Part shown: positions 837-59,093 of the stretch, piece by piece
How the letters are laid out: each line of letters begins with the position of its first letter
Numbering within the stretch: the stretch's first letter is position 1
DNA from: Xiphias gladius
Lineage: Eukaryota; Chordata; Actinopteri; Istiophoriformes; Xiphiidae
Direction of reading: 5' to 3'
Assembly: GCF_016859285.1 (NCBI RefSeq)
Contig: NC_053400.1
Span: 26,727,501-26,791,500, forward strand
DNA: 64,000 bases
The notes under the pieces: generated by a model
Databases searched by the model: none
Told to the model about the DNA's origin: nothing
Seen by the model: only the letters and a program-made list of their open reading frames with translations
Position numbers and translations under genes: made by a program

Positions 837-5767
<4,931 letters not shown>

Positions 5768-14783: not shown

Positions 14784-14984
14784 CAAACCACATATGACCA
14801 TGTCGTCTGCATTGATAAATTGTATTATTACAAAAAAATTTGTTTGAAATAAAATTAGTAAAACTTGACTATTGGTTTCTTGTATTTTGTAATTTTTTTT
14901 GTTACTGACAAGCACCTTAAATGACTGTTTGAGATCTCAAAATCAAACCATCAACCAACCACTGACTTTCTGTTTTTAAATGTG

Positions 14985-15197
14985 GCCATAAGAGGGCGTT
15001 GCACACTCAGAAAATGTATTGATCACCAGCAAAGTGGAACTGTTGAAGTATTGGACTCTACTGGTGTATTTCATTGCAGGAAGTTCTGTCTGTCTACGTG
15101 CCTTCCACCTCGTACTACCCCCCCCCATCCTGACTACATCAGCGGGACTCTCAGGATGCTGAGCTAAGAGACGTCAAGGATTTCTTTGCAACAACAG
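14985..15197 (+). promoter_or_regulatory. c15orf48: c15orf48 promoter and 5' non-coding exon
   Basis: A likely non-coding exon ends ACAACAG|GTGAGA at 15197. It joins the acceptor TTCTCCTCAG at 15300, 20 bases before the ATG. Upstream are GGGACTCTCA (15144-15153, one base off a kappa-B consensus) and GACGTCA-like bases at about 15170. The mammalian gene is inflammation-induced, so the kappa-B-like site is suggestive only. Confidence 0.4.
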
Positions 15198-15320
15198 GTG
15201 AGACGTGCCGCACAGCTGCCTCTATGACTTGTTGACTTTATTCCACTGAATGGACTCTCAGCCTCATTGTTAAGTGGAATTAAAATACATTTCTCCTCAG
15301 GTACTTGAGAAATTTGAAAA

Positions 15321-16161
15321 ATGGTCGGATTTTTCCAATTATTGAGAAAGAGAAAGGAGGTGAGTTGTCTATATTTTTATTATGTTAGATGATTTTGTAT
15401 TGCGGATATTGGTTTTATAGCCCATGAAGAATATTATATCCATTTTAATATTATGATAGACATTTAAATACATTTTTTTTCAATGTGTGTTCCAGCTGAT
15501 CCCTTTGATAGGGTTCATGGCTTTTGCTGCAACAGGAGCCACCTCTGCTGCGATCTACTTTCTGCTTACTAAACCTGATGTTATGTGAGTGTTATTGTAC
15601 TTTTTTCCCCCTCATTTTGATAAAATTATATTCCACTGTATATATTATATAATATAAAGTGTTTTAAATTGCACTTAAACCTCCTTCGTGTTTCAGTACT
15701 TTAATCAGCCTCTGGCAGCTAAGAAATGCTTAATAATGATATAACATTTTGATTTCCTGTTTTTTAGTTTGAATAAAACCAGAAACCCAGAACCATGGGA
15801 GAGAGTAGACCCATCAAAACCCCAAAAGGTAATCTCTAACATAACATTTTTTTATATTTGATGGTTGTTAATAAGCCTTAAATACAAGCAGAATCTTCCG
15901 GAGTGCAGCTGCAACCTGCTGAGTCACTGAGGAAGAAATGTTATCAAATTAGCACCAGCCTTATATTGTGATCTGAGTAACGATGTGTATATTAGCGCAG
16001 CTACTCATGTTACCTGTCTCTTAAGGTTGGTGTCACTCTTGCAAATGGGTCAGGTGAAGCCTAATTTTTTATTTTTGGCATTTACGCTGCAGTTCATCAC
16101 CATCAATCAGCAGTGGAAACCAGTGGAGGAGCTGGAGCTGGTGAAGAGCCTCACCAAGTAA
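15321..16161 (+). CDS. c15orf48: C15orf48/NMES1 (COXFA4L3), NDUFA4-like complex IV microprotein
   Basis: This is a small mitochondrial inner-membrane protein, paralogue of NDUFA4. In mammals it replaces NDUFA4 in cytochrome c oxidase during inflammation. Four coding exons are read: 15321-15359, 15496-15584, 15768-15828 and 16093-16161, giving 85 residues (human 83). The start MVGFFQLLRKRKELIPL matches human MSFFQLLMKRKELIPL. One hydrophobic helix follows (FMAFAATGATSAAIYFLL, about residues 20-37). The tail NPEPWERVDP and ITINQQWKP is the family signature. Donors and acceptors are all GT-AG. It is the direct downstream neighbour of afg2b, as in human. The 3' UTR carries miR-147, so a single transcript yields both the protein and the microRNA. 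A poly(A) signal AATAAA is at about 16569. Confidence 0.95.
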
Positions 16162-16225
16162 AAAAAGGAGGGCATCTGCTAGAAAGACCACCTGCCTGCG
16201 CCCCGCCCCCCACCCATCAGTCTAA

Positions 16226-16287
16226 CAGAATCCTTTCTGCACAAACTGGGACACTCTTACACTCAGTGTGCGGAAATGCTTCTGCTC
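16226..16287 (+). ncRNA. mir147: miR-147 precursor hairpin
   Basis: The 3p arm begins GTGTGCGGAAATGCTTCTGC at 16266, the known miR-147b sequence. The 5p arm (16226-16247) holds CAGAATCC and TTTCTGCACAAACT, close to mammalian miR-147b-5p. TTTCTGCACA pairs with TGTGCGGAAA through one G-U pair, and CAGAA pairs with TTCTG. The loop is about 18 nt. It lies 64 bases after the c15orf48 stop codon, the same host-gene position as in mammals. Confidence 0.92.
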
Positions 16288-16568
16288 CACTGGTGGGGTT
16301 TCACCCTGCTAAACCCAACAACGCCCATCCGCAACAGTGGAAAACTTTGGTAACAGACCCCCAAAGTGAAAAAAGACTATCTTACTCTGGGTTTCTGTGA
16401 TTAAAACTAAAGAGCTATATTTATATTGAAGAAGCTGTGTTTTAATGTGACAGGGCAGTTGGTGGTCATAGAAACCCAGATGCTCTCACAGTAGATGTGA
16501 ATATACAATAGTGTTTGACTGTGAAGACACGAAATGTAAACTGAGTAAATAATGTACTGTACAGTGTC

Positions 16569-16574
16569 AATAAA
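16569..16574 (+). terminator. c15orf48 poly(A) signal
   Basis: A canonical AATAAA lies about 0.4 kb after the stop codon, giving a short 3' UTR that includes the miR-147 hairpin. From here to 17540 nothing gene-like is seen. Confidence 0.6.
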
Positions 16575-17540
16575 TTATTGTGAACACGCAACTTTCTCCA
16601 TCAGAGTGTTGCAAATGTTCTCAAAGGTATAAACATATTTATGGAGGAATCTTCATAATCAGGCCTTTACACCGATATTCTTAGTCTGTTGTGTGTTATA
16701 AAGCAAATAGTAATATCTTCTCCCAAACTCATCTACCTCTTGACTATAAATGATAATATGTTGAATTTGGTTGGAAGAGGTGCTGCATCCCCTGTTTTAA
16801 TGTAAATACATCACAAAGCATAACAAAAAGATAAGGCTGGTGATATTCTGTGTTTTTCAAATTGTTAACAAATCCCGTAAAAGACCAAAACCAGCCATTA
16901 ATTGATCCAACTAACAAGTATTGTCTGTGTAGCCAAAGCTTGATATGGCTTATTGCTCTGTGTTTACCTACGTTGGCCCTTCTCACAGCAGGCATTTTGT
17001 GTACTTTGTTTTATTTTTTATTTTAAGACTTAAGACACTTATGTCTTAAGTAAGAAATGGGCTTGTGGCTGAGTGCCACACACAGGCTGGGGAAGTGGGA
17101 ATGTAATTAGAGATTGACTAACACATTGTAGATTTTGGTCTTTTTGTTGGATTTGTTGACAATAAAAGAGATTAATGCCGGCCTATTTTTTGAAGTCATA
17201 TTTATTTCTAGTCAGTCGATAATTACCTAGACTTTTTTTCAAAGCAGACAGTTTGAATTTTGCAGAGAGAGTGTGGGTGTAGGTGTAATTACTAAGAGTA
17301 ACAATAGTTTCTCTCCATTGAGGTGTCCCAGTAAACCATGCTCGGTTGCACCATACACAAAACTAGTCCTCCTTGAAAAGCACACCTAAATGTTAAACAA
17401 CCATTATTAATGTTATCAGATCTGGCTGTGATTTTCCTGCTATGACAACACACAATGCCTGTAGTGAAAAGGATCTACTGCTTTAAGAGTGGCTTAAATC
17501 CTCCTAATATCTTAGTATGTAATTTTACAAAACATCTCAC

Positions 17541-27800: not shown

Positions 27801-30636
27801 TTTTCGTAATTTTGCCTCTGTACACTATCACAATGGATTTGAAACAAAGCCATCAAGATTTGATTGAAGTGTAGATTTTCAGCTGCATTTCAAGGGCTTT
27901 GTAGGAGCCAAGACTTTTATGAAGTATGTGTTTGTTAAGGCTGCCTACATTCTTTTGTGAGTGTGAATCTTTGAATCTTTTCAAAGATTGTGAGTAGGGC
28001 TCAGATATTTTCTGTTGAGCGTCATGTCTTGCTTAATGTATGCTAGTATTTATAATTGCAGGTTAATACTTTTTAGTTTTTAATAAACCGTATAAAACGT
28101 ATCTGGACTTCAATGTGGATTTGTATGAACGCATCACAGTTAGGAAAAAAAAAGGCTTTTAAGAGGCTAAGTAGGCTCTTAGCCTCTTAACAGCTTTTTT
28201 TATGGACAGTAGTTGCTACAGAGTTTAACAAAAATATTGCATTAACCGTTTAGGAATTACAGCCCTTTTTATACATAGTCCCTCATTTTCAGAGGCTCAA
28301 GAGTAATTGACTGACAACCAGTTTCATGGCCAGGTGTGGTCTGTTCCCTCATTTCATGACAAATTAAGCAGATAAAAGGTCTGGACTTGATTCCAAGTGG
28401 TGAATTTGAATTTTGTAGCTGTTCATGGGAGCTCTCAATATACGGTCCGGAGAGGTGTCGATGAAATTGAAAGAGGCCATCATTAGGCTGAAAAAACAAA
28501 ACAAACCTATAAGACAGATAGCAGAAACTTTAGGAGTGGCCAAATCAACAATTTGGTACATTCTTAAAAAGAAGGAATGCACTGGTGAGCTCAGCAGCAC
28601 TAAAAGGCCTGGAAGACCACGGATGACAACTAAAGTGGATGATCACAGAATTCTTTCCTTGGTGAAGAAAAACCCTTCGCAACATCTGGCCAGGTCAAGA
28701 ACAGTCTTGAGGAGGAAGGCGTGTCATTGTAGAGTCTACAATCAAGAGATGCCTTCATGAATGTAAATACAGAGGGTTTGCTTCAAGGTGCAGACCACTG
28801 GTAACACTCCAGAACAGAAAGGCCAGATTAGACTTTGCCAGTAAAAATCCAAAAAAAAAAAACATTTCCTCGAACAAGATTCTTTGGACAGATGGAACCA
28901 AGATTGACTTGTACGAGAATGATGTGAAGAGAAGAGCATGGAGAAGGAAAGGAACTGCTCATGATTCAAAACATACCACACATCATTTGTCAAACATGCT
29001 GGAGGCAGTGTTATGGCATCGGCATGTATGGCTGCCAATGGAACTGGGTCACTGTTTGAGCTACAAAAAGCTACCAGCTACCAAAAGCAAATTCAATGCC
29101 TTTTATCTGCTTCATTTTTCTGCTTAATTAACTGTACATCAACAGCAAAGTACGTAATTAGATTTCCAGGTTATATGCTGTAAAGTGACTCACACTCTTT
29201 GGAGCCACATTTAATTTTTTTTTTTTTTCGGGGGGGGGGGGTTATTCACTTGGTAAACAATAACTGAATTTTGAAGATGATGACAGAAATTAGCATATGA
29301 TCTAATGTGACCCTAGGAGAATTAAAACTAATTTAAAAAGTGGTGAACTGCCACAGGCTATCAGCAAAAACTTAATTAAAAGAAGCTATGTTCTTGTCAC
29401 CACTTTTTAATTAGGAACCACTGACTCAGACAGAAAACAAAGGCCCTCTGACTCATGAGGAGAAAAAAAAAAAAAAAAAAAAAACCCGGAGATTCTGGCC
29501 TGACTTTTCAGACAGTGCTCTCCAGCACCATCATTAAAACAACAAATGAGGGTGTGTCTTCTTTTGGAAGAATGGCGTTCATCTCTCCAGTGGAGTTTCT
29601 GGGACTTGTCAAATCAATGCTAAGGAGAAATGAATTTGTTCTGGCGGCATGTGGTGGCCCAACACCTTACTAAGACACTTTATGTTGGCTTTTCCTTTAA
29701 TTTGTCACCCGTCTGCATGTTCACTTGATCTTCAAGGAGTAATGATGGGTCTTTTTCACTATTCTCTGACATTTGATTCACTGAAAAATGAACTGATTAT
29801 TAAAGAATATAACCGTCACATGTACTGATAATGAAAATAACTGTTGGTTGCAGCCATACAGTTCTTTTATGATCGATTAATACATTTCCACAGGGCTTTC
29901 TATGTGATTATTACTTGACTCGTAGAAGAAATGGAAGCAGTTGGCTAAAACAAAACTTTAAAACAAATTAGCTCAATATAAACTAAAATAATTTAGGTCT
30001 TAGAACTAGATTTTGAGAGTCCCTCTACTGGACCAGGCCCACAGGATGTTGAATGGAGGACTGGTCATTACTGATGTCTTAGTGAGTATTAAAATTATGC
30101 AGACCCATATGATATAGAGCAAACCTGGGGCTTTTGAATTTGCCCTCTGGTTGGTAATCCAGCCTCGCCAAAAATATTATATAATAAAATAATAATGTGG
30201 TGCGTGGTTCACTCTTCGCCTGCTTACCTATAATTTCACCTGTCATGAAAACGAAATACAGCAAAGCTGCAATGACAAGCCTCTTCATCACCTTCCGGTG
30301 CTTGATACTCTCCCTCTTCTTGGTACAGTTGTCACAGGGGTCCATATTCAACCCCGGGCTGCCGAGGCTCGAAGAGGAGTCGAGCAGGGAGTCGTCGTCA
30401 TCACCCGCCACCACCAGCGTGTTCACCGCCGCCCCGTTGGCGGTGAACACCGCGCCGGCCGAGTAGTCTGACATCTCCCCGGACACCACCACCTTCAGCT
30501 TGTTGAATTTGGGCGCCTCGTCCTCCACCAGCTCATCGGACATGTCGAAGGGCGCCGAGTCGCTCAGGTCCCGGTCGCTCCGCTCCCTCCGAAAGGCGGA
30601 CCGCACCTTGCTGATGAGGTTCCCACCTGACATCAT
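21889..30636 (-). CDS. slc30a4: zinc transporter ZnT4 (SLC30A4)
   Basis: This is a cation-diffusion-facilitator Zn2+/H+ exchanger that loads zinc into endosomes, lysosomes and secretory vesicles. Seven coding exons are read: 30228-30636, 27484-27630, 25865-26018, 24902-25136, 23649-23754, 23418-23552 and 21889-22043. They sum to 446 residues (human 429). The acidic cytosolic N-terminus (residues 1-110) precedes TM1 ([18 protein letters not shown]). Zinc-binding pairs are visible: H152 and D156 (HMLAD) in TM2, and H294 and D298 (HALGD) in TM5. The His-rich loop [18 protein letters not shown] (247-264) is encoded by a short minisatellite. The C-terminal cytosolic domain ends CAQCQQPSA, like human CANCQSSSP. 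Paralogues SLC30A2, A3 and A8 are the alternatives, but the flanking c15orf48 and bloc1s6 fix it as SLC30A4. Intron 1 (2.6 kb) hosts a Tc1 relic. The first of two adjacent ATGs was taken as the start. Confidence 0.94.
27766..29060 (+). mobile_element. Tc1/mariner transposon relic, interrupted and 3'-truncated
   Basis: The left terminal repeat is CAGTTAGGTACATAAGTATT onward. Transposase sequence starts at about 28428 with a readable paired-type helix-turn-helix ([20 protein letters not shown], then [18 protein letters not shown]) and the GRPR motif (RPGRPRMTT). Further on, [20 protein letters not shown] appears in another frame. The ORF is frameshifted after about 80 residues, and the copy stops near AANGTGSL, so the last catalytic acid and the right terminal repeat are missing. 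A foreign block of about 325 bp sits at 27897-28222 inside the 5' non-coding part. It lies in slc30a4 intron 1. Confidence 0.85.
28146..28203. repeat. hairpin inside the block interrupting the Tc1 relic
   Basis: TTAAGAGGCTAAG (28159-28171) is the exact complement of CTTAGCCTCTTAA (28178-28190) around a 6-base loop. The flanking AAAAGGCTT and CAGCTTTT extend the stem imperfectly to about 22 bp. It lies at the right end of the inserted block. Confidence 0.7.
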
Positions 30637-32505: not shown

Positions 32506-34802
32506 TAGCCTGACCTTTGGTCCCGACTGTAAGCCAAGCGCCAAAAACAGTGGGTCCTGCACTTCCCATAGTACAAGTCCAAAACATCTTTGGTTGCGCC
32601 GTGTTCATGTCGTATCAGTGTTATAATGTCATTGCACGCTTTTTTAACCCTAAGACAACCAAGCATACAACTGGCTTAAGTTGTCCACTGACAGGAACGT
32701 CCACAAGTCAAAAACATGGGAACCTTTCCCATCTCTCCTATATGACATGAAAGTGGCGTTAGACCCTACCTGACTTATAGATGCCCGCAGGTTTCGAAAA
32801 CCGCACACCCCCAGTCTGCCACACAGGCTGAAAAAAGGTGAAAAATATGAATTCTCCAAACCCAAGTTGATTTAACCCCTGAAAACATCATCAGGCTAAT
32901 TTTCACAGACTTTAGAAAGCTCCTCTAGAAACACTGAAAAACAAAATACTGTTTGCACAGGCTGAGTAGTACTCACGATGAATATTTTATTGAAGGGACT
33001 TTTTTTTTTTTTTTTTTTTTAAATCAGAAGAGTGCCCTAGTAATACTTATATAGAGAAATAAAATAACAGGAACAGACAGAGTCATTAATGAAATAGAAT
33101 TATAGATAAGAAGCAACGGGAGGTAAGATTTAATGGCCATGGTGACCTACAGTAGATCACGTAAAACAACGAAGTCTTACATCTCATCTCTTACGTCTTA
33201 TCTCATGCAGTCAGAATAACAGGGGCGAGAGGCAGTGCGTCACATTTCAAGGATGTCAGTGATGAGCTATAATTACTGCCTTTGTGAAGGGAAAACTGCC
33301 GCCGGGCCTCCAAAGAAGGGCGATAATTGGGTAATTTATATAAGGGACTCATTACTAAACGCTTCGCACATTTTTTCGTCACATATTTGACAGATCTCCA
33401 GTTGGCACCGCAGGAATCCTTCCACCTGGAGAGCTCAGCCCCTCTAGAGAATGTGTTCGTGGATAAGAATGCCGTGCAAAAACTCACAGAGGGATTACTC
33501 TCTCACTACCTACCGGATGTACAGACCTCTAAACGAGCGCTTCAAGAGCTCACGTGAGTACTTCCTTGATTGGTGTGTCATGAGTTATTACTCTTGCACC
33601 TGGCAAATTGGCAGTAGCGACTTTAATACTTTCGAGTACTCTTTTCTGCTGCAACTTATTATTATTATTATTATTTATTTATTTATTTTTAATTAATTGT
33701 TTGGTCTGTAAAATGTAAGAAAATAGAAGCAAATAGCCAACACTAGATTAGAAAGGAAGCAGTGAGGAATTATTTGTTTAAAAACAAACTTACCTCTAGA
33801 CCTCACAAATTTCTATTGATTGGTGTGTGAAGTAAATAAAAAGACATTTAAAATATCCCTACAAATACGCTGTCTTTGCCCGCACAGCTGTCAGTTAGGT
33901 GATTCACACACTAACATACTGATATACCCACATGCCAGTATGTAGAGGTCACGCAGGTAATCATGCGTTAGGCAGAGTGTCTTGCCAGTGTTTCACTACC
34001 AACATACTGGTGTTCACCTGTTTGTATTAAGCCAGGGTGACACAACTAGTGCTATTAAAACTTCACAAACGTGTAAAAATCTGTGGGACACTTTTAAATA
34101 ACCTGTCATTGTCATTGAATGATTAGAGCATATTCATTTTTTTTCCGCCTATTGACGTTTTGGTGTAGAATATGCGGTAGATGTCCTTGAACACGAGTAA
34201 AGTGCACTTGATGATATTTATTTTTTACTCTTCGTGTTTTGTTTTTTTTGTCTCAACCAGACAAAATCAGCTGATATTGTTAGAGACACTGGACCAAGAA
34301 GTCACCAAGTTCAGAGAATGTAATGCCTTACTCGACCTCAATTCACTGGTATGTTTGGACTGAGTTATAATCTCATTTGTACAGTTGTCGTTTGTATTAT
34401 AATCTCATTTGTACACTTGTTGTTGGTTTTTAATCCAGTTTGTTGTCTTTAGTTTACAGAGGCGAAGGTTTACCACAGTAAACTGGTGAACATAAGGAAA
34501 GAGATGATAATGCTCCACGAAAAGACAACTAAACTAAAGGTACCCCTCACCTCAGTCAGATTTAACGCGAGCGTTTTGCTTGCGTCAGTATAGTTGACCT
34601 CGTGCTCTAAGACGGGTTGGTGGATGGATGTAGCTGTAACAATGCATGCACTGAAAAAATGTTGCCTGTTGGTCTCTCTCAGAAAAGAGCTCTGAAGCTG
34701 CAGCAACAGAAGCAGAAGGAGGTGCTGGAGAAGGAGCAGCAACGTGAGAAGGAGCTGGAGAGAGAGAGGCAGCTTATTGCCAAACCTGCTAAAAGAACGT
34801 AG
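31630..34802 (+). CDS. bloc1s6: pallidin, BLOC-1 complex subunit 6
   Basis: Pallidin is a coiled-coil subunit of BLOC-1, which sorts endosomal cargo to melanosomes and other lysosome-related organelles and binds syntaxin-13. Five coding exons are read: 31630-31693, 33394-33553, 34261-34348, 34453-34539 and 34683-34802. They give 172 residues, the same as human. The acidic start MEAEGMEDEGPSTQ precedes the family core: KLTEGLLSHYLPDVQ, QNQLILLETLDQE and KLVNIRKEMIMLHEKT, then a K/E-rich coiled coil to the end (KPAKRT, human RPAKRM). The intron 1 donor AAG|GTGTGTGT opens directly into a 110-bp TG repeat. Intron 1 also holds a Tc1 relic on the opposite strand. It is divergent from slc30a4, as in human. 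Confidence 0.95.
31694..31805. repeat. (TG)n microsatellite starting at the bloc1s6 donor
   Basis: A TG run with early TC interruptions starts at the first base of bloc1s6 intron 1. The donor itself (GTGTGT) is therefore part of the repeat. Confidence 0.95.
32040..32310 (-). mobile_element. Tc1/mariner transposase 3' relic
   Basis: On the minus strand WPPQSPDLNTMESVWDHMER reads cleanly, a match to the Tc1 signature around the last catalytic Glu. A leucine-rich tail follows (ALKNLPTKYPEK). An upstream piece FCSMTMNELQPG corresponds to the QDND/PKHT region and is degraded. The N-terminal DNA-binding part is absent. It sits in bloc1s6 intron 1 and is a different family from the 27766 copy. Confidence 0.75.
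32470..32501. repeat. (AGC)n trinucleotide repeat
   Basis: There are about ten AGC units in bloc1s6 intron 1. On the opposite strand it reads CTG. It is not in a coding exon. Confidence 0.95.
33690..33770 (+). repeat. TAGGGCT-type MITE fragment
   Basis: AATTAATTGTTTGGTCTGTAAAATGT resembles the inner part of the MITE family present at 17733-18086. It is short and diverged, and lies in bloc1s6 intron 2. Confidence 0.35.

Positions 34803-56721: not shown

Positions 56722-59093
<2,372 letters not shown>

Follow-up and report, generated by a model that had tools for sequence, protein, structure and literature searches.

In vertebrates, the C15orf48/NMES1/MISTRAV/MOCCI locus carries a small B12D protein and the miR-147b hairpin in one last exon, with seed sites for the microRNA in the ndufa4 3' UTR; experiments with mimics, reporters and complex IV underlie the mechanism described for mammals (PMC7793259, PMC8035321, PMC8654286). 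According to Sorouri 2020 (PMC7793259), human and gar miR-147b agree at each of 22 bases, zebrafish miR-147b carries indels and may be nonfunctional, the ndufa4 8mer is conserved out to fish and duplicated in some of them, for example gar and medaka, and ndufa4 duplications are noted in zebrafish. A 2021 study in Science Advances (PMC8654286) gives at most two miR-147b differences, none in the seed, for coelacanth and six ray-finned fish, and speaks of >450 million years of selection; together with PMC7793259 it places miR-147b with fish c15orf48 in gar, coelacanth and six ray-finned fish. The mir-147 precursor of the Atlantic halibut, printed in 2012 (PMC3398304), resembles miR-147 of mammals and birds and has putative miR-147* reads; it was found in an EST, and the passage leaves its host gene unnamed. 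Furthermore, oni-miR-147 is tabulated with expression values for an icefish and two red-blooded notothenioids, in a passage that names neither host gene nor target (PMC11209021). Two other papers returned as miR-147 sources were irrelevant: PMC4390885 was matched through mir-1473, and PMC9926789 through a cited work with miR-147a in its title. An earlier note on the DNA studied here had claimed that the pair of protein and microRNA predates the fish-tetrapod split; this is right but already printed (PMC7793259, PMC8654286).

Here we describe the corresponding locus of Xiphias gladius in a window of 64,000 bases, the whole stretch of DNA that was analysed (Table 1). Demonstrated in this fish are the hairpin, the coding gene, a mature core that occurs exactly once in the genome, and target sites. 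As in the vertebrate locus, a B12D protein and the hairpin share one last exon and ndufa4 bears seed sites; in contrast to it, Xiphias gladius has two genes classified as ndufa4-type, with sites in one. The locus is very probably the fish ortholog of C15orf48/MIR147B, with one transcript that would yield a complex IV subunit and a miR-147 acting on one ndufa4 copy.

Table 1. Features of the c15orf48/mir-147 locus of Xiphias gladius (window coordinates).
Feature	Position	Strand	Evidence
Possible c15orf48 5' non-coding exon (start arbitrary)	15100..15198	+	read by eye; GTGAGA donor follows 15198, acceptor precedes 15301
c15orf48 coding exon 1 (ATG)	15321..15359	+	open frame joined at GT/AG borders
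c15orf48 coding exon 2	15496..15584	+	open frame; B12D search
c15orf48 coding exon 3	15768..15828	+	open frame; B12D search
c15orf48 coding exon 4, stop TAA; hairpin in same exon	16093..16161	+	open frame
c15orf48 3' UTR (3' end approximate)	16162..16600	+	sequence words; 3' end placed by AATAAA
mir-147 precursor hairpin with basal stem	16215..16295	+	Rfam RF00693, 68.2 bits, E 9.1e-14; fold z -5.05
Likely miR-147-5p arm (ends inferred)	16226..16247	+	Rfam alignment and pairing table
Mature miR-147-3p (ends by homology)	16266..16287	+	all 22 bases match oni-miR-147 of PMC11209021

The c15orf48 coding sequence comprises four exons with GT/AG borders and specifies 85 residues without an internal stop. 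Its product contains a full B12D domain (Pfam E 2.3e-22) and matches four solved-structure sequences (best E 1.2e-9), each bearing the label NDUFA4 of cytochrome c oxidase. Compared with human sequences, the product is identical to C15ORF48 at 55/83 positions and to NDUFA4 at 24/67, and scores of 278 for C15ORF48, 118 for NDUFA4 and 130 for NDUFA4L2 place this small B12D protein nearer to C15ORF48 than to NDUFA4. The domain and the identity to C15ORF48 uphold c15orf48 as the host gene, as the earlier note had named it, and the gap of 64 bp that it had counted between stop and microRNA is exact, the stop ending at 16161 and the feature proposed in the note starting at 16226. Polyadenylation-type words (ATTAAA at 16400, AATAAA at 16569 and 17161) lie exclusively downstream of the hairpin within 16101-17500, so that a transcript ending at any of them would include the hairpin; with neither AATAAA nor ATTAAA ahead of it, miR-147 is predicted to reside in the 3' UTR of the c15orf48 transcript. 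A crude scan for NF-kB, ISRE, GAS and AP-1 consensus words found none on either strand of 14791-15320, the 530 bases before the ATG; inflammatory induction is therefore without sequence support here, a result that weighs little in either direction.

Upstream of c15orf48 and on the same strand, Pfam identifies an AAA-ATPase gene, and downstream, on the opposite strand, a cation-efflux domain at 27.6 bits against a cut-off of 26.6. By their domains these neighbours fit spata5l1 and slc30a4, which flank human C15ORF48. Further away, an AlaDh_PNT_N domain gene at 4423-5169 (-) (E 3.2e-22), with likely additional exons by eye at 3451-4024 (-), is probably nnt, which is not known to be a neighbour of the human C15ORF48 locus. 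The minus strand also encodes a Pfam Xlink (extracellular link) domain at 56725-57036 (E 7.7e-33) and, by eye, a similar-looking second stretch at 57546-57893; the region 56725-57893 (-) is probably a hyaluronan-link protein gene. Open stretches at 28419-29124 (+) resemble by eye a broken Tc1/mariner-type transposase, and the translations of 892-1161 and 1814-2152 (+) have a long peptide run in common, which suggests a local duplication or repeat.

In an Rfam cmscan of all 64,000 bases on both strands, mir-147 was the single family above its gathering score, which for RF00693 is 57 bits. The alignment spans model positions 1-78 of 78, with three pairs flagged non-standard. A stretch of 102 bases containing the hairpin folds at -38.3 kcal/mol. 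Its shuffles average -23.3 kcal/mol (sd 2.98), and 0/200 fold as stably. The hairpin also persists within the 439 bases past the c15orf48 stop, where its 30 pairs have a mean probability of 0.93 and a minimum of 0.49. Fold and pairing table thus reveal a stable hairpin whose stem contains both arms, confirming the miR-147 hairpin that had been proposed at 16226..16287 and for which the earlier note had suggested the secondary-structure check.

The 3p arm reads GTGTGCGGAAATGCTTCTGCTC and equals oni-miR-147, a tilapia-type name, in all 22 mature bases, in agreement with the miR-147b identity claimed for it. A CNNC word begins 15 bases past the 3p end, the distance near which Drosha's CNNC helper motif is positioned. 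At the loop end, 16266 is paired with 16246. A 5p arm beginning at 16226 would have its first base paired to 16284 and a 3' overhang of 3 bases; beginning at 16225, it would have one of 2 bases. Drosha/Dicer-like offsets are plausible for the predicted arms, in line with the expected offset named in the earlier note. A miR-147-y primer from work on flounder, listed in PMC8003733, is one base off the window sequence. Decay of the hairpin to an unprocessed remnant is highly improbable: the three non-standard pairs in the alignment and the zebrafish precedent, in which miR-147b is reportedly not intact (PMC7793259), would fit it, but the match to the family is full-length and above its cut-off, and the mature sequence is that of oni-miR-147 printed in PMC11209021.

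The genome to which the window belongs comprises 690.8 Mb in 1298 contigs. It contains the 18-base core of mature miR-147 in one exact copy, at no place with one mismatch and at 33 with two (34 places genome-wide), compared with 4 places with up to two mismatches for the reversed control pattern; as the control has a different CpG number, we do not read this excess as extra mir-147 copies. Rfam scans at 7 of the 33 two-mismatch places gave no mir-147 match, and a genome-wide RF00693 search returned one match among the 60 candidates scored of 54802. A second mir-147 locus is accordingly rejected for further exact and for one-mismatch cores and for the seven two-mismatch loci scanned.

With E values up to 10 allowed, a B12D search of the genome yielded 25 rows. 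The 15 below the cut-off were dropped; the 10 above it derive from five genes, c15orf48 on contig C1 and the others on contigs C3, C9, C18 and C21. Judged by identity to human NDUFA4, the C3 (55/67) and C9 (49/67) genes are classed as ndufa4-type. The remaining two look ndufa4l2-type in sequence, with weak separation against the human sequences (scores with NDUFA4 versus NDUFA4L2: 205 versus 201 for C21, 188 versus 215 for C18).

The earlier note had set the presence of a seed site in fish ndufa4 as a check, and the C3 gene has two. Its 3' UTR of 193 bases, from the stop to AATAAA (3' UTR ends are placed here by this word, not by transcripts), contains CCGCACA twice: a 7mer-m8, followed by G, begins at the 42nd base past the stop codon (contig C3, minus strand, 21466540), and an 8mer, followed by A, at the 99th (contig C3, minus strand, 21466483; both contig coordinates converted from locus positions). 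Among 20000 dinucleotide shuffles of this UTR, at least one CCGCACA occurred in 0.58% and two in none. This arrangement of 8mer plus 7mer differs from the duplicated 8mer reported for gar and medaka in PMC7793259. The 8mer offers eight further pairs to the 3' half of miR-147, and its predicted duplex of -26.6 kcal/mol was attained by 23/5000 shuffles of the miR-147 3' part and by 61/5000 of the upstream site part. For the 7mer duplex (-19.9 kcal/mol), pairing beyond the seed is at chance level (1164/5000 and 800/5000 shuffles).

These sites might instead serve mainly miR-210, which is linked to hypoxia and has an overlapping seed, the hairpin and gene being conserved with miR-147 minor for ndufa4. 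An intact mir-210 is present on contig C8 (RF00679, 83.2 bits) and has six seed bases in common with miR-147, the C3 8mer also fits miR-210 as CGCACAA, and zebrafish retains its ndufa4 site though its miR-147b is reportedly not intact (PMC7793259). We nevertheless regard a predominant role of miR-210 as unlikely, since both C3 sites read CCGCACA and match miR-147 fully through position 8, and since the duplexes predicted for miR-210 reach only -19.2 (8mer) and -17.2 kcal/mol (7mer), versus the values given above for miR-147 (19/22 bases of the miR-210 sequence used were confirmed in the genome).

Unlike the C3 gene, the other three paralogs lack CGCACA in the stretches read past their stops (C9, ~6 kb; C18, ~6 kb; C21, ~3.5 kb). 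The UTR of the C9 gene may just be a short one, an AATAAA lying ~78 bases past the stop; neither a miR-147 nor a miR-210 seed word follows that stop. Thus miR-147 sites are kept in only one of the two ndufa4-type genes, C3 and not C9. Among the matches listed in the literature search (titles, abstract starts and passages), we found no description of a fish in which one of two ndufa4 copies is without a site; such single-copy retention may already be in print. Within the window, CCGCACA occurs on the plus strand at 15208, which we place in the intron ahead of the ATG exon of c15orf48, at 32801 and at 33880. The word is absent from the c15orf48 3' UTR (16162-16600), and self-targeting of c15orf48 by miR-147 was rejected on this basis.

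Hairpin, coding gene and target sites support, at the level of sequence, the dual-output reading of this locus, in line with the earlier claim that one transcript gives both a microprotein and a microRNA. In the model that we favour, the system most likely works as in mammals. An induced transcript would encode the small complex IV subunit, and its last exon would supply the miR-147 hairpin, excised by Drosha from some of the c15orf48 transcripts. The released miR-147-3p would lower one ndufa4 copy by binding both of the sites in its 3' UTR, while the c15orf48 protein would replace NDUFA4 in complex IV. By analogy with the mammalian locus we extend processing, inflammatory induction, repression and exchange of the subunit to this fish. 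As the C9 ndufa4-type gene has no site, subunit exchange could be partial. More tentatively, and with the odds somewhat against it, the miR-147 (and miR-210) switch may have retained its hold on just one ndufa4 copy after gene duplication in fish, the other copy being a stress-resistant complex IV subunit beyond c15orf48/miR-147 control.

Xiphias gladius is apparently one more ray-finned fish with all parts of the circuit, namely host protein, microRNA, target sites and miR-210. Since zebrafish reportedly has no intact miR-147b, such a fish would suit a test of the coupling better than zebrafish, and if one ndufa4 copy alone is targeted, the other would provide a natural internal control.
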